Part shown: positions 13,964 to 56,692 of the stretch, piece by piece
How the letters are laid out: every line of letters starts with the position of its first letter
How positions within the stretch are numbered: the first letter of the stretch is position 1
NCBI GenBank assembly: GCA_016219275.1
Contig: JACRBM010000024.1
Coordinates: 1 to 64,000 of the forward strand
Direction: 5' to 3'
DNA from: Chloroflexota bacterium
GTDB taxonomy: Bacteria > Chloroflexota > Anaerolineae > UBA4142
Length of the DNA stretch: 64,000 nucleotides
The notes under the pieces: generated by a model
Databases searched by the model: none
Told to the model about the DNA's origin: nothing
What the model saw: the letters and a program-made list of their open reading frames with translations, nothing else
Position numbers and translations under genes: made by a program

Positions 13964-14840
13964 CCGGCAACCCCGCGCGAGAGCGCACTGCCGCGATCTC
14001 CGCGCCATAGAGCAAAATCGCCGCGGAGATATAACCCCACAACATCAGCGCGATGATCGCGCCGACTGATCCATACACGAGATTGAGCAACGCGAAATTG
14101 GTGATGTACCACGCAAAACCCAGTTTCGCAATTTCCCATAGGATCGCGGCGATCAATGCGCCGAACCAAACCGTGCGCCAACTGGCGCGACGACCGGGCA
14201 CAAAGCGATAGAGAACGACAAATACGAGGAAACCCAGGATGAGCGCGCCGAGGACGGGCAACACTTGCGGCAAAATATCGCGGCGTTGCAACACGCCATA
14301 GTGAACGCTCATTCGAATCGCGGCAGTCGTAACGAAACTGAGACCGAACAATCCGCCCGCGCCGATCACCATCGCGAGTGACTGCACGCGACGCCGCCAC
14401 GCCGGTTGCGTGTGCTCCATCTTGAAGGCGCGATGAATACCAAGTTGCATCAGGTCGAACACGCCGGCGGCGGACCACACAAATCCCGCGATGGCGGCAA
14501 CTGTCAACGCGCCGCGCAAGCGAATCACTTCTTGCAGGGTCGCACGAATCATCTGCGCGCCGGCGGGCACATAGCCGCTGATCAAACCGGTCACCGCGCG
14601 CATCGCTTGATCGGAATCGAGAAAAAGACTCGCCATCGTGAGGACGAACAACGCGAGCGGAAAAATCGAGAGGAGCGCATAGTACGCGAGCGCGGCGGCA
14701 AGCGTCGCGCATTGATCGGCGCGGTACGCGCGCCACGCCAGCGCGAGCGCGCCGATGAACGGCATCGCCTGCGCGCGCGTTTCAGTCGTTTTGACAAAAT
14801 ACGAAACGCGTTGCACCTGATTTTCAAACCACGGATTCAT
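13956..14840 (-). CDS. YihY/BrkB-family inner membrane protein
   Basis: This is a polytopic membrane protein of 294 residues in the YihY/BrkB family, once mislabelled ribonuclease BN. About six hydrophobic segments are visible, including YYALLSIFPLALFVLTMASL and the C-terminal GAIIALMLWGYISAAILLYG, and the family signature near the C terminus ends in YGAEIAAVRSR. The start ATG overlaps the pyrK stop (ATGA), and its end overlaps the next gene, so it is translated within a tight four- or five-gene operon. Its role is unknown; transport has been suggested for relatives. Confidence 0.9.
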   Translation of the reverse strand: MNPWFENQVQRVSYFVKTTETRAQAMPFIGALALAWRAYRADQCATLAAALAYYALLSIFPLALFVLTMASLFLDSDQAMRAVTGLISGYVPAGAQMIRATLQEVIRLRGALTVAAIAGFVWSAAGVFDLMQLGIHRAFKMEHTQPAWRRRVQSLAMVIGAGGLFGLSFVTTAAIRMSVHYGVLQRRDILPQVLPVLGALILGFLVFVVLYRFVPGRRASWRTVWFGALIAAILWEIAKLGFAWYITNFALLNLVYGSVGAIIALMLWGYISAAILLYGAEIAAVRSRAGLPDD

Positions 14841-15604
14841 CGCGCGCTCCGTTTATCGAACCACGTCAGATCGAAGGCGGGACCGTCCACACAAACGCGT
14901 TTCAAACCACTTGATGTTTCCATCGCGCACGCGTAACACACGCCTGTGCCGCACGGCATCGCGACGTCCATGAGTACACGCGCAAACCCTGGGTTGAGCC
15001 GATACCGCGTCAGACGAATCGTCTCGGCAAGCGATTGGCGCAACACGTCCGATCCGCTTGCAACGACCGCATCCGCCCACGCAATCACCTCAGCAAGCGC
15101 ATCCGCATCCGTCCGAAATTCGATTTCCGGCGAGAGCAAATGAACCGGAAATGCAACCCCCTCCCCATCCCCTCCCCCGCTTGCAGGGGCGGGAGTATTC
15201 GCGCGATGCGCCATCACGACTTCACACCCGCGCGCAATCGCATCGTGCGCGACGGGAACCAGGCGCGCGATGCGCGTGTCATCGCCAAACAACGCGATGC
15301 GCCGCGCGCTCGCGTCGAATTCGAGCGCGTGACCGAGCGGCGCGAGCAAATCGAGTACGTCGCCGACACGCGCACGCGCGACCAGCGCGTCGTCCGATTC
15401 CATCGCGAACGATATGCGCGATCCTTCACGCGCGTAGAACCACGCGACGCGGCGCAAGTACGGATCGTACGACCCAGGATCGCAGACGAGCGCGAACTGC
15501 GCCGGGCGAAACGCGTTCGCCAGGTCGGGCGCGCCGAACGTGAGCAAGTGCGTCTGCGACCACAGCGTGTGCGATTCGATGAGTGTGCAGAGGTGTTGTT
15601 TCAC
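14837..15604 (-). CDS. dihydroorotate dehydrogenase electron-transfer subunit-like (PyrK-like)
   Basis: This is 255 residues from a GTG at 15604 that overlaps the upstream stop (GTGA); a longer frame would run through the methyltransferase gene. The C terminus has the [2Fe-2S] cysteine cluster of PyrK, CGTGVCYAC with a fourth Cys in KRVCVDGPAFD. The front part resembles a ferredoxin-reductase FAD/NAD module with RPAQFALVCDPG. A proline/glycine-rich insert (APASGGGDGEG, near 15165-15190) looks derived from a GC-rich palindromic repeat. It is adjacent to a dihydroorotate-dehydrogenase-like gene, so it probably passes electrons between NAD and that flavoprotein. Involvement in pyrimidine synthesis is inferred. 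Confidence 0.8.
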   Translation of the reverse strand: MKQHLCTLIESHTLWSQTHLLTFGAPDLANAFRPAQFALVCDPGSYDPYLRRVAWFYAREGSRISFAMESDDALVARARVGDVLDLLAPLGHALEFDASARRIALFGDDTRIARLVPVAHDAIARGCEVVMAHRANTPAPASGGGDGEGVAFPVHLLSPEIEFRTDADALAEVIAWADAVVASGSDVLRQSLAETIRLTRYRLNPGFARVLMDVAMPCGTGVCYACAMETSSGLKRVCVDGPAFDLTWFDKRSAR

Positions 15605-16254
15605 GGGAAGGTTGCCGCGAGCAAAATCGTGCGACCGCGGGTCGCGAAATATGGCGCGCGGATGAATACGCGATGCACGATGACGCCGAGCGCGCGCAAC
15701 GCGCGCACGCGCGAGAAGTAAGGAAAAATCGTGATGCCAGTTTCGACGCGCCACCCTGCGCGCGTAAACGCGTCGCGCAATTCAGCGAGCGCATAGACGT
15801 GCGCGTGATCGGCGTCGGCAAAATGCGCGGGATCGGGATAGCGCGCGTTCGGCGTGGCGAGGGCGACGCGCCCGCCGGGTTTCAGCACGCGCGACCACTC
15901 GCGCAACGCGGCGGCGAGATCGTCAATGTGTTCGACGACGTGCTGACCGATCAGCGCGTCGAACACGTGATCGCGAAAAGGCAACACGCCATCGTCGCCG
16001 ATTTGGGTCACATCGAGATGTCCCGGCAAATCGTTACGACTGCGCGCCAGTTCGAGCGCGACATCCAGCGTATCCACTCCGAAAGGCAACGCGTTGCGTG
16101 CGCGCAGCATTCGCAACACGCCGCCGCCGCCGCAACCCATTTCGAGAACGCGCGCGCCGCGCGTCACGCGCGCGAGGTTCATCAAGTACTCCGCTTCGAT
16201 GCGCCAATCGCGCCAGGACTCGCGCGCGGTAAAGTACGCTTCGGAATAAGCCAT
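15601..16254 (-). CDS. class I SAM-dependent methyltransferase
   Basis: This is a methyltransferase-11-type protein of about 217 residues. Motif I is VLEMGCGGGGVLR, with DTLD at the end of strand 2, followed by the HVVEHIDD and LKPGGRVALATPN motifs. The ATG at 16254 begins MAYSEAYF. An ATG upstream adds only residues encoded by the AT-rich GATTTTCGATTTGC repeat and is rejected. Its stop overlaps the PyrK-like start. It belongs to the same transcription unit as the membrane and dehydrogenase-like genes. The substrate is unknown. Confidence 0.87.
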   Translation of the reverse strand: MAYSEAYFTARESWRDWRIEAEYLMNLARVTRGARVLEMGCGGGGVLRMLRARNALPFGVDTLDVALELARSRNDLPGHLDVTQIGDDGVLPFRDHVFDALIGQHVVEHIDDLAAALREWSRVLKPGGRVALATPNARYPDPAHFADADHAHVYALAELRDAFTRAGWRVETGITIFPYFSRVRALRALGVIVHRVFIRAPYFATRGRTILLAATFP

Positions 16255-16258
16255 GGAG

Positions 16259-16330
16259 AGATTTTCGATTTGCGATTTTGGATTTTCGATTTGCAATTCG
16301 CAATCCGCAATCCGCTATTCGCCATTCGCC
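16259..16330. repeat. GATTTTCGATTTGC intergenic filler repeat
   Basis: The spacer consists almost entirely of tandem degenerate units such as GATTTTCGATTTGC, followed by ATTCGCAATCCGC. The same AT-rich family fills spacers near 28905-28942, 35937-35995, 36790-36815, 38401-38425, 39210-39300 and 53468-53503. Confidence 0.7.
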
Positions 16331-23273: not shown

Positions 23274-23310
23274 AGTCTGACAGGTTCGGTGAACCTGTCA
23301 GACTTTTTTT
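23274..23310 (+). terminator. rho-independent terminator
   Basis: The perfect 14-base arms AGTCTGACAGGTTC and GAACCTGTCAGACT have a 3-base loop and run into seven Ts. It ends the 60-residue gene. The stem is of the same CTGTCAGGTT palindrome family as at 46841 and 56652. Confidence 0.85.
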
Positions 23311-30112: not shown

Positions 30113-31153
30113 CTAGCGCAAATTCGCGACGTCGAAACTCATTTTCTCCAAAACCTCGATCAACTCGTCGGGCAAGGGCGCGGTGAACCTGACCGCGCGC
30201 TGATCGCGCGGCAACGTAAACTCGAGCTTCCACGCATGCAAAAATTGTCGCGTCGCGCCAAGCATATTTTTCGCGCGACCATAGACTGCATCGGCGACGA
30301 CCGGAAATCCGAGAAACGCCAGATGCACGCGAATCTGGTGCGTGCGCCCGGTCTGCGGCTCGACTTGGAGAAACGTGTGCGCGCCGAGATTCGCCAGTGT
30401 GTGGTACACCGTCACCGACGCGCGCGTTTTACCTTGTGTTACCACCGCCATTCTTTGGCGATGCTTCAGATCGCGTCCAATGGGCGCATCAATTTTTCCG
30501 CTTGGCGGTTGCACGATGCCTTCGACGAGAGCGAGGTACGTTTTCTTGACACGGCGCGCTTTGAACTGCGCCTGCAAACCGCGCATCGCCGCGTCATTTT
30601 TCGCTACGACGATGATGCCGCTCGTCTCACTATCGAGACGATGGACGATGCCTGGTCGTTCCTCGCCACCGACCCCACCCCAGCCCTCCCCTTGTAAAGG
30701 GGAGGGAGCATCTCCACCGCGTCCCTCTCCTTTACAAGGGGAGGGCGCATCTCCACCGCGTCCCTCTCCTTGCAAAGGGGAGGGAGAGGGAGGGGTTTGC
30801 ATGTAACCAAGAATCGCGTTGACGAGCGTACCTTCGCTATGCCCTGCCGCCGGATGAACAACCATGCCCGCCGGTTTGTTGATGACAATGAGATCGTCGT
30901 CCTCGTACAAAATATCGAGCGGGATATTTTCCGCGCGCGGCGTCGCCGGTTCGGGCGGCGGGACGCGTACAGTGATCGTCTCGCCGACTTGTACTTTGTA
31001 ACTCGCCTTGCGCGCGAGATTGTTGACAAGAATAAATCCGTCCTCAATCAATCGCTGTGCTGCCGCACGCGAAAGTTCGGGCAGTTGCTCCGCGATGTAG
31101 CGGTCGAGGCGCGTGTCATTCGAGATGACGGTTAGAACAGTTGTTGTATCCAT
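30113..31153 (-). CDS. rluD: RluD-family 23S rRNA pseudouridine synthase with a repeat-derived insert
   Basis: This is a 346-residue RluA/RluD-type pseudouridine synthase with an N-terminal S4 domain (RLDRYIAEQLPELSRAAAQR) and the catalytic aspartate in IVHRLDSETSGIIVVAK. The normal fold is interrupted between NAILGY and RPGIVHRLD by about 47 residues (119-165) of three tandem copies of a SPLQGEGRGGDAP-like unit, encoded by a palindromic repeat at 30659-30799. The remaining protein has the usual length. The ATG at 31153 lacks a strong ribosome site. Confidence 0.92.
   Translation of the reverse strand: MDTTTVLTVISNDTRLDRYIAEQLPELSRAAAQRLIEDGFILVNNLARKASYKVQVGETITVRVPPPEPATPRAENIPLDILYEDDDLIVINKPAGMVVHPAAGHSEGTLVNAILGYMQTPPSPSPLQGEGRGGDAPSPCKGEGRGGDAPSPLQGEGWGGVGGEERPGIVHRLDSETSGIIVVAKNDAAMRGLQAQFKARRVKKTYLALVEGIVQPPSGKIDAPIGRDLKHRQRMAVVTQGKTRASVTVYHTLANLGAHTFLQVEPQTGRTHQIRVHLAFLGFPVVADAVYGRAKNMLGATRQFLHAWKLEFTLPRDQRAVRFTAPLPDELIEVLEKMSFDVANLR
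30659..30799. repeat. in-frame GC-rich palindromic repeat inside rluD
   Basis: Three copies of a unit containing CCCTCCCCTTGTAAAGGGGAG (its halves are inverted repeats), separated by CATCTCCACCGCGTCCCTCTC-like spacers, are inserted in the coding sequence and translate as tandem SPLQGEGRGGDAP. Similar GC-rich palindromes occur in the pyrK-like gene (about 15165-15190) and intergenically at 32364-32410. Confidence 0.85.
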
Positions 31154-32363: not shown

Positions 32364-32410
32364 CCACTCCCTCCCGCGTTCGCTCTTGGAGCGAACGGGG
32401 GAGGGAGTGG
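32364..32410. repeat. CCACTCCCTCC hairpin repeat
   Basis: The arms CCACTCCCTCC and GGAGGGAGTGG, with an inner CGTTCGCTC/GAGCGAACG pair, form a strong hairpin just beyond the ileS stop at 32433. It resembles the GC-rich palindromes in rluD and pyrK and could also act in transcription termination. Confidence 0.65.
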
Positions 32411-32432: not shown

Positions 32433-35400
32433 CTATTTTTTCAAAATCCCGATGCTCACCTTCTCGCCATCAAACGCATCGTCAACGACCGTCGCGCCGG
32501 AGGGCGCTTCACCGGCGCGCAGTTCATCCGCGAGCGTTTCGCCGGCAATGTACGCGCGCCACGTTTCAATCGCGTGCGCGAGTGGCGGGGTGGCGGTGTA
32601 GAAAACGCGAATGTGATCCGCGATATCGAATTCCGCGCTCTTGCGCAGGTCTTGCACGCGCCGCACAAACTCGCGCGCGAGCCCTTCGGCGCGCAGTTCG
32701 GGTGTGATGTGCGTGTCGAGCGCAACGACGAGCGTGTCTTCGGATTGCACCGCGAACCCAGGTTTCGGTTGCGGCGTCACGAGAACATCCGCTGGCGCGA
32801 TTTCGAAGGCGAGTCCGTTGACATTGAGCGCGAATGATTTGCCGGCACGTACTATCGTCGCGACCTGACTCGCATCTTGCGCGGCAAGCGCGGTTTGTAA
32901 ACCACCCATCAATGCTTTGCGTTTTTCGCGCGCGTCTTTTTTGATTTGCTTGTCATCCGTTTCCGGTTCGGGCAGTAATTGTTTCACTTTTTCTTGAAGC
33001 GTCGCAAAATTCGGACGCAGTTGATACGTGACGAGTTCTTCTTCACGCGCGGCAAACTCGACCGCGTGCACATTTAGTTCGTCCGCCGCGAGTTCGCGCA
33101 GATGCGTTAGCCCTTCGCGTTGCGCCGCGTCGGCGACGACAATCGCGCGCGCGAGCGGCTGGCGAATCTTGATGCTCTTGCTCGCGCGAATCGAGTGACC
33201 CAGGTTCACCACTTGACGCGCGATTGCCATATCACTCAACAATTGCTTGTCGAGTTTCGTATCGTTTACTTGCGGCCAGCTCGTGTGATGCACCGATTCC
33301 GGTACGTCCGCGTTCGCAGAGCGCACAAGATTTTGGTACATGGATTCGGCGACGAACGGCACAAACGGCGCGAGCAATTTCGTCAGCGTGACAAGCACTT
33401 CGTACAATGTCGCATACGCCGCGCGCTTGTCGCCATCATCTTCCGATTTCCAAAAACGACGGCGTGAGCGGCGCAAGTACCAATTGCTCAAATCGTCAAT
33501 GAACGGCTCGACCGCACGCGCGGCAGTCGGCGAATCGTACTCGTCGAGTGCGGAAGTCATTTCGGCGATCAACGCTTGTAGCCGAGCAAGAATCCACCTG
33601 TCTAGGGAACTAGGGGAAATGAGGGAATTTCCTTCATTTCCCTCTCTTCCCGCTATTCCCTTCGGTTCCCATTTATCCAAATTCGCGTACGTCACAAAGA
33701 ACGAATACACATTCCACAATGGTAGCAAAAACATGCGCCGCGTTTCGTCCGCGACGTGATAACCGAACAGCATGTTCGATTCATAACGCGTGCGCGAGAA
33801 CATCCAGCGCATCACGTCCGCGCCGATCTCATCCGCCGCGTCGTTGAACTCGATCATGTTCCCAGCCGACTTGTGCATCGGACGACCGTCTTCGGCAAAG
33901 AGCGTGCCGTATCCCATCAATGCTTTGAATGGTGGCTGCCCGGTCATCGCGGTGCCCATCGCGAGAACGGAATAGAACCAGTTGCGGAACTGACCTGGGA
34001 ATGATTCGGTGATGAAATCGGCGGGGTACCATTTCTCCCAGTACGCGCGATCGGTGCGATAGCCCATCGTGGACATCGTGACGATGCCGGCATCAAGCCA
34101 GGGATTGCCGACATCTTTGATGCGCGATGTTTTGCCGCCGCACTTGTCGCATTTGATTTTCACTTCGTCAATGAAGGGACGATGCGGCGTGTGTCCATCG
34201 AACTTGTCCCAGCCCTCGACCGCGCGTTCCTGCAACTCATCGCGACTGCCGAGCACGTTCGCATGTCCGCACTCTGTACATTCCCAGATCGGCAGCGCGA
34301 GACCCCAGTAACGTTTCTTCGAGATCATCCAATCGTGCATCAAGCGCAACCAGTCCATCTCGCGGTCGTGACCGAATTGCGGGACCCACTTGATTTGATC
34401 CACGACATCCATGATTTGATAACGTAGTGAGCGGGCTTTTTCTGCGGGCGTGATTTGATCGCGCGGCTTGTTATAAGTTTCGCCCATGCTGATGAACCAC
34501 TCATCCACGAGGCGGAACAGCAATTCAGTTTTGCAGCGCCAGCACGTCGGATAGCGGTGCGTGTAATCGTCGGCGCGATAGAGCAAACCTTTTTGCGTCA
34601 ACGATTCGACGACACGCGGCGCGACATCGAACGCGCTCATCCCGCTGAACGCGCCAAAGTTTTCGATGAACGTACCATTCTCGTCAATCGGCGCGACGAC
34701 CGGCAAACCGAATTCCTTGCCAAGTCGAAAGTCTTCTGCGCCACAACCTGGGGCGATGTGAACGAGCCCCGTGCCTTCCGCATCGCCGACATCTTTCCAC
34801 AAAATAACACGATGCGCTTGCGCGGCATTCATCGCCGGGCGCGTGATGTGATTCTTTAATTCGATTGGGACAAATCCGCCCTTTTGCTGTTGCGCGGGCA
34901 GTTCGTCGAATGGACCATCGTACGTCCATCCTTCGAGTTCGGTACCTTTCAACTTGCCGAGCACCTGGTATTGCCCTGTCAACATCTTGACCGTGCCTTC
35001 GGACAAATAGTACACCGCATCACCTTGCTTCACTTTCAAGTACGTGAGTTCGGGTCCGACCGCGACCGCGACGTTGGACGTGAGCGTCCACGGCGTCGTC
35101 GTCCACACGAGCAGATATTCGTTCGCACGTCCGCGTAGTGGCAAGCGCGCGGTAATGCTGGGATGCGTGAGGTCGGGATAATCTTCGGTGCTGATTTCGT
35201 GCTCGCTGACGCCGGTGCCGCAACGCGCGCACCAGGGCATCACGTCCGTGCCTTTGTAAAGCCAGCCGTTGTCCGCGCACCTTTTGATGAATCCCCAAAT
35301 CTGATAATTGTTCTCGTCGCTGAACGTGAAATACGATCCGCCAAGTTGCGGCAGACCGAGTTGTCCAACGAGTTGTTCGACTGTGCCGGTGACTGGACCA

Positions 35401-39298: not shown

Positions 39299-39623
39299 AA
39301 AAACGTCCCGCCCCCCCAAGGGACGAGACGCTTGCGTTTCGCGGTACCACCCTTTTTAGTTCGATAGTGCGATAGTCCAATCGTGCGTTAGTTGGCGTCC
39401 AACTAATCAATCATCAAACTATGCAACTAACAAACTCACTTTATCGAAGACCACCATCTTCGCGTCTTGTGTAACGGATGACGACTCCGTCACTGTCTAC
39501 TCGCTCGCGCTTTGGCAGTGCCGCTCCGGAAGGATTTTCGGCGAGGTTCACGCGCTCGGCTTGCACTATCCCGAACTCGCTAGGCGATTCACTCACGTAC
39601 TCGTTTCCATCATCGCGTTTGTT
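39299..39623 (-). ncRNA. T-box leader (tRNA-sensing riboswitch) upstream of alaX
   Basis: On the minus strand the leader carries the classic T-box AAGGGTGGTACCGCG (39353-39341 plus flank), preceded by a stem I region with GAGTACG and GTGCAAGCCGAGC blocks and a CGG...CCGTTA block. It ends in a terminator: GTCCC and GGGAC arms followed by TTTTTT (39306-39301). A GCC triplet, an alanine codon, sits in the candidate specifier loop at 39516-39514, which fits the downstream AlaX gene, but I have not folded it, and an offset of one base (CCA) cannot be excluded. Confidence 0.85.
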
Positions 39624-41629: not shown

Positions 41630-41649
41630 CCGGCAATTCCTTTTCGAGA

Positions 41650-41676
41650 ATCCAGGTTTCTTTGAGAAGCCTGGAT
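41650..41676. repeat. ATCCAGGTTTCTT hairpin repeat
   Basis: Nearly perfect arms ATCCAGGTTTCT and AGAAGCCTGGAT, eight bases from the end of the kinase gene; it may also terminate it. A related hairpin is at 44816-44846. Confidence 0.6.
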
Positions 41677-41683
41677 CCTATTT

Positions 41684-44785: not shown

Positions 44786-44815
44786 ATCGGATCACCTCAA
44801 ACGATGCCTTTGTCT

Positions 44816-44846
44816 GAATCCAGGTTTTTTGGAGAAACCTGGATTC
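44816..44846. repeat. GAATCCAGGTTT hairpin repeat
   Basis: The arms GAATCCAGGTTT and AAACCTGGATTC have a 7-base loop, 30 bases before the PP2C TTG. It is related to the 41650-41676 hairpin. The 130 bases to the APC gene hold no other recognised feature. Confidence 0.65.
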
Positions 44847-44978
44847 TCTTCCGTTCATCAAACGAAATTGACAAAGGAATTACTCGAAACAAGATTACCC
44901 CTGTTGCGTTCTGCTCTTCTCCCCCTCTAAAGATTCACAGAACGCCAACAGGGGGACGAACCGAGAAATAAGGGCGTC

Positions 44979-46840: not shown

Positions 46841-46879
46841 AGACCTGTCAGGTTCGCGTCGCGAATACCTGACAGGTCT
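46841..46879. repeat. AGACCTGTCAGGT inverted repeat
   Basis: Arms AGACCTGTCAGGT and ACCTGACAGGTCT enclose 13 bases. It lies just beyond the Amt1 stop and has no T-run on the minus strand. Relatives are at 23274 and 56652. Confidence 0.7.
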
Positions 46880-46900
46880 TACATCGCAATGTCGCTTGAA

Positions 46901-56586: not shown

Positions 56587-56651
56587 TTTTGATTGTGGAT
56601 CGTTCCGAAATGTCCGATTCAGATTGGAGCAGATTCCTGACGCGTTTACGT

Positions 56652-56692
56652 CAGACCTGTCAGGTTCGCTTCGCGGAAACCTGACAGGTCTG
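56652..56692. repeat. CAGACCTGTCAGGTT inverted repeat
   Basis: The arms CAGACCTGTCAGGTT and AACCTGACAGGTCTG lie between the small membrane protein and response regulator genes. Same family as at 23274 and 46841. Confidence 0.7.

Follow-up and report, generated by a model that had tools for sequence, protein, structure and literature searches.

Palindromic repeats read in frame within protein-coding genes have been described in several unrelated settings. Intragenic REPs that keep the reading frame are known from several phyla, and tRNA pseudouridine synthase genes are among their hosts; counts are highest in Opitutus terrae and Rickettsia conorii (PMC3733652). The inserts of Rickettsia palindromic elements (RPEs; reviewed in PMC10969869) have a similar protein length to the inserts that we describe here. 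RU-1, RU-2 and ERIC, MITE-like repeats of 100-170 bp from Enterobacteriaceae, are also found within genes (Delihas 2007, PMC2759123).

Here, we describe a GC-rich element that lies in frame in an rluD-type gene within the window (the whole 64,000-nucleotide stretch of Chloroflexota DNA that was analysed). As a short imperfect palindrome with many dispersed copies, it is REP-like. It resembles the GTAG/CGTC REPs (BMC Genomics 2013, PMC3733652) in being a high-copy palindrome that is mostly intergenic but sometimes in frame in unrelated genes, in occurring as single, dimer and clustered insertions, and in its uneven distribution among species. Unlike those REPs, it is built as a nested palindrome whose outer stem carries a conserved mismatch, its aligned copies have no fixed GTAG, CGTC, TGTC or CCTC tag at either end, and no RAYT (Y1_Tnp) gene of the kind that accompanies the GTAG type is linked to it. 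As do RU-1, RU-2 and ERIC, in the part of their description considered here, it gives in-frame peptides to genes as a small, non-autonomous repeat, whereas tandem triplication of a short core is absent from that part of the description. An earlier note on this DNA had called the repeat the same phenomenon as the Rickettsia elements. The likeness holds for dispersed palindromes placed in frame in many unrelated genes (here 13 in 26% of the genome, plus a pyrK-like gene). It does not extend to the unit itself, which, compared by description, is ~48 bp, uses three frames and has no conserved peptide, whereas an RPE spans about 150 bp and encodes a conserved peptide; nor is the parallel a rare one, given the several phyla already known (PMC3733652).

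Architecture of the rluD insert

The insert is a nested GC-rich palindrome in which a 21-bp core occurs three times with a 39-bp period, equal to 13 codons each, and a single pair of outer arms encloses all three cores (Table 1). The rluD frame stays open across it, and the core pattern has three exact matches in the window but none in shuffles (n=100). The in-frame palindromic repeat first noticed in the sequence alone is real; the interval originally given for it (30659-30799) extends a little beyond the element. At 32364-32410, the reported intergenic palindrome exists in the form of a related variant, and the shorter insert reported in a pyrK-like gene is likewise a related palindrome in a genuine gene. 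The insert peptide, TPPSPSPLQGEGRGGDAPSPCKGEGRGGDAPSPLQGEGWGG, falls between 'TLVNAIL' and 'RPGIVHRLD' of RluD. It is Gly/Arg-rich, comprises three similar peptide units, and adds about 38 residues net relative to the RluD of relatives. The RNA of the 125-bp insert folds at -82.7 kcal/mol (z -6.2 versus shuffles), and no Rfam match to the insert was found.

Table 1. Positions of the rluD insert and related features in the window.
Feature	Position	Strand	Remarks
rluD-type 23S rRNA pseudouridine synthase gene	30113..31153	minus	346 aa; carries the insert
In-frame palindromic insert, outer arms and three cores	30672..30796	minus	125 bp
Left outer arm, ACCCCACCC	30672..30680		
Core palindrome 1, CCCTCCCCTTGTAAAGGGGAGGG	30684..30706		
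Core palindrome 2, CCCTCTCCTTTACAAGGGGAGGG	30723..30745		
Core palindrome 3, CCCTCTCCTTGCAAAGGGGAGGG	30762..30784		
Right outer arm, GGGAGGGGT	30788..30796		conserved A/A mismatch to left arm
GC-rich palindrome related to the element	32365..32409		different inner stem; between ileS and dksA-like gene
pyrK-like gene	14837..15754	minus	DHODB_Fe-S_bind
Short related palindromic insert in pyrK-like gene, RANTPAPASGGGDGEG	15155..15193 (approximate ends)	minus	

A dispersed element amplified in this lineage

In the source genome (6.16 Mb, 107 contigs, 97.9% complete), the rluD insert has 52 BLAST matches and the core pattern 147, versus 8 for a reversed control. The full element of ~48 bp reads ACCCC(A)CCC-YARC-CCTCCCCTTNNNAAGGGGAGG-GNNN-GGG(A)GGGGT, and the consensus of aligned copies is about ACCCCACCCYARCCCTCCCCTTNNNAAGGGGAGGGNNNGGGAGGGGT. 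Variants have longer inner stems with paired changes on both sides (e.g., CGTTCG..CGAACG and CGTC..GACG). The outer-stem mismatch, A/A or, from the other strand, T/T, occurs in 22 of 23 full elements. Because this shared feature is not palindromic, the copies look like derivatives of one oriented sequence rather than products of repeated chance hairpin formation. Judging by pattern counts, the amplification is lineage-specific: the arm-plus-core pattern has 32+43 matches in the source genome, whereas 13 same-family genomes have 0-2 each. For the simpler core pattern, counts per genome across the family span 0 to 147. Arm-plus-core matches number in the tens again in G089 and G114, both distant genomes. 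A composite copy gave only two partial matches to plasmids. In the literature searched, we found no published paper on the element or its repeat peptides, and nothing relevant on the TCATTGCGAG repeat.

We consider it very probable that the rluD insert is a REP- or MITE-like non-autonomous repeat that was amplified in this lineage, had its core triplicated by slippage, and was kept in a permissive loop. A short, non-autonomous palindromic DNA element would have multiplied, presumably by copying, and one copy would have entered the rluD loop between the post-HPAAGHSEGTLVNAIL helix and the catalytic 'RPGIVHRLD', replacing a few native residues. Two further copies of the core would then have arisen as 39-bp units, for which replication slippage on the hairpin is the simplest route, and as 39 is a multiple of three the frame would be kept. 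Persistence would follow from a disordered, tolerant loop in which the insert may be neutral, and from the element being, by chance, open in that frame.

In a variant of this account, differing only in how copies move, the copies spread without a transposase, through template switching driven by the palindromes or through gene conversion, with one palindrome replacing another at existing loops. It gains from the lack of a matching transposase: no transposase or RAYT linked to the element, and no related autonomous element, was found in the genome, where the sole Y1_Tnp/RAYT-like gene (C40:90174-90618, L167) is flanked by GGACGCT..AGCGTCC palindromes unlike the rluD repeat. It gains also from unrelated palindromes in the same loop across genera, and from the eight element copies that lie between two head-to-head TGTCATTGCGAG...GAAGCAATC repeats, which resemble the CGTC/TGTC REP class of PMC3733652 in their tag, in the first bases of the stem and in the type of dimer. 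However, tolerance of the same loops would give this pattern with no special mechanism, and most copies have flanks that bear no relation to one another; we regard this variant as somewhat unlikely. Copying of the element without a transposase is possible. Against the favoured account, no transposase could be assigned, and a non-systematic look revealed no clean target-site duplication; inverted arms are present.

Copies inside genes

We inventoried 50 element loci in a 1.58-Mb sample (26% of the genome), with genes called by a home-made codon-usage model; the contigs were picked for carrying copies, a choice that bears on density but not on the proportion found in genes. A search for the unit in other genes, as had been suggested, found it: 13 of the 50 loci fall within genes, against a coding share of 87.5% in the sample (p 2.5e-23). 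In-gene copies are thus strongly depleted, and those that remain are tolerated. In CysS the element occupies the linker between the catalytic and DALR domains. Further hosts are a HisC-like aminotransferase, 6-phosphogluconolactonase (pgl), a PPDK_N/PEP-utilizer (PEP-synthase-like) protein, a GH2 enzyme, an FGE-sulfatase domain, and mannosyltransferase-like membrane proteins. Where checked, each copy occupies a loop or linker of a housekeeping protein.

The intergenic majority (74% of sampled loci, mostly between tandem genes) and the strength of the hairpins might suggest that the palindromes are functional DNA or RNA signals, such as terminators or mRNA stabilisers, with the in-gene copies an incidental spill-over. 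Yet placement in tandem, convergent and divergent gaps (30, 3 and 4) is about what gap length predicts, and a copy number running from 0 to 147 within one family is unlike that of a general signal. We find a signal role improbable.

Among gene-borne copies, each of the three frames is in use (5, 6 and 2 genes), and no peptide is conserved. The number of open frames out of six averages 4.39 for random genomic 47-mers, 4.13 for intergenic copies and 4.87 for gene-borne copies. The earlier note had concluded that the repeat has a protein-compatible reading frame; as a special property of the element this is rejected, since random 47-mers are comparably open. Frame openness is thus ordinary, with some filtering by selection (p = 0.016, with the three tandem rluD units counted separately).

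The RluD loop in relatives

The relatives compared comprise same-family and more distant genomes, none of the same genus. Where the source genome has its insert, the RluD of most same-family relatives has only a short native loop, AHCPNLNVGGVERPG, and in two genomes (G006 and G007) other palindromic elements occupy this site. In a tree built without the insert columns, three changes are needed for the three insert carriers and a single clade is rejected (p-AU 0.0156), with the carrier group chosen after the alignment was seen and family branches mostly poorly resolved. Given the short loop of most relatives and the rejection of a single origin, the insert is, on this alignment and tree, not an ancient RluD domain. 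An insert shared by all relatives, which the earlier note had named as the sign of such a domain, is not what we see. No exact empty site was found among the relatives, which are too diverged for one (about 75-80% in RluD).

The insert might nevertheless be a functional extension native to the RluD of this lineage, perhaps a Gly/Arg/Pro-rich loop for RNA binding, and be GC-rich by chance. Its Gly/Arg-rich composition, its frame, its three similar peptides, and the extra residues at the same site in G006 and G007 would fit. Against this, the same DNA occurs in dozens of intergenic sites and in other genes in three frames, most same-family relatives have the plain short loop, and the insert is disordered in the predicted structure. 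We judge a native extension very improbable.

In the rluD genes of G006, G007, G012 and G004 (L061, L072, L077 and L078) we also noted a 110-bp element of four consecutive hairpins, in frame. It occupies two further RluD sites, apart from that of the GC-rich insert. The rluD copies match the query at 93-96%, versus ≤ 86% for copies elsewhere in the same four genomes, which suggests that the element recently moved, or was exchanged, between rluD genes.

Integrity of RluD

The rluD product has recognisable S4 and PseudoU_synth_2 domains (Pfam), an HRLD motif with its catalytic Asp intact, and a predicted RluD fold, which together place it among RluD proteins by sequence and model. Its nearest named relatives are from Anaerolineae/Chloroflexi MAGs, and the nearest solved structures are those of RluD. 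H171, R172 and D174 are invariant throughout the alignment. The AlphaFold2 model (38 sequences) has a mean pLDDT of 85.9, with values < 50 only at residues 124-157, which are the insert. No second RluD-like gene was matched in the 97.9% complete genome, the other own-genome matches being repeat copies. From the invariant HRLD residues, the high fold confidence and the lack of another such gene, we infer that the enzyme is probably active with its insert.

That rluD is a decaying pseudogene whose frame the palindrome spares by chance is the least probable reading, for although so strong a hairpin in a coding region could hinder translation, the gene has neither a stop nor a frameshift, residues with catalytic or structural roles are invariant in a confidently predicted fold, the genome has no second RluD, and CysS, normally an essential protein, carries the element too.

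The same loops in other genes

The freshest point concerns the loops themselves. In all five genes compared (rluD, the HisC-like aminotransferase, cysS, pgl and the pyrK-like gene), the loop differs in at least one other genus, where it holds another repeat or low-complexity sequence. The aminotransferase loop contains the GC-rich element in the source genome. In G001 it has a head-to-head repeat of the TGTC type instead, and in G002 and G005-G008 AT-rich inverted repeats or related sequence. Unrelated extra sequence is found at the element position in CysS of G006 and G016 and in the 6-phosphogluconolactonase of G001. The pyrK-like gene of G012 has its own insert, and most relatives are without the palindromic insert of the window's pyrK-like gene.

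We tentatively propose, as a hypothesis somewhat less likely than not, that a few protein loops are standing landing pads in this Anaerolineae family, at which unrelated palindromic families repeatedly insert and replace one another; the comparison behind this covers five carrier genes. If so, the loop sequence of housekeeping enzymes would turn over by repeat colonisation rather than by point mutation.

Other palindromes in the window and in relatives

The repeat in the G001 aminotransferase (L312) is a head-to-head TGTCATTGCGAG...CTCGCAATGACA, CGTC/TGTC REP-like, and is translated in frame as VIASEAKQS...LLAMT. The window has AT-rich GATTTTCGATTTGCG direct and inverted repeats at 16260, 35932, 38398, 39214 and 53465, and similar sequence is translated in the aminotransferase loop of several relatives (L307-L311). 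A hairpin with 9-bp arms in ileS (33614-33642, GGGAAATGAGGGAATTTCCTTCATTTCCC) encodes REGNEGNSL in frame and is possibly another small palindromic insert. Three palindromes with common ACCTGTCAG/CTGACAGGT arms (23274-23304, 46841-46882 and 56650-56692) form another REP-like family, and the palindrome GAATCCAGGTTT...AAACCTGGATTC has two copies (41636-41682 and 44804-44850). In five relatives (L321, L322, L323, L326 and L327), the sequence matched to the pyrK-like protein contains an in-frame TGA, which may precede the true start. A T-box leader is encoded on the minus strand at 39316-39622 (RF00230, 102 bits).

Implications

In-frame palindromic insertion is known as a kind of event, but this element family and its extent in the clade appear to be new. 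The findings extend such insertion to Chloroflexota genomes of normal size, so it is no quirk of the reduced genomes of Rickettsia, and many housekeeping genes are affected in the source genome. For annotation they carry a warning: a Gly/Arg/Pro-rich stretch such as SPLQGEGRGG is not a domain but the translation of repeat DNA. Across genera, the loops of rluD, the HisC-like aminotransferase, cysS, pgl and the pyrK-like gene lack an insert or hold a different one, and thus provide a natural experiment. Because related genera with no or different inserts exist, both the cost of an insert and the route by which new peptide sequence arises are directly testable.
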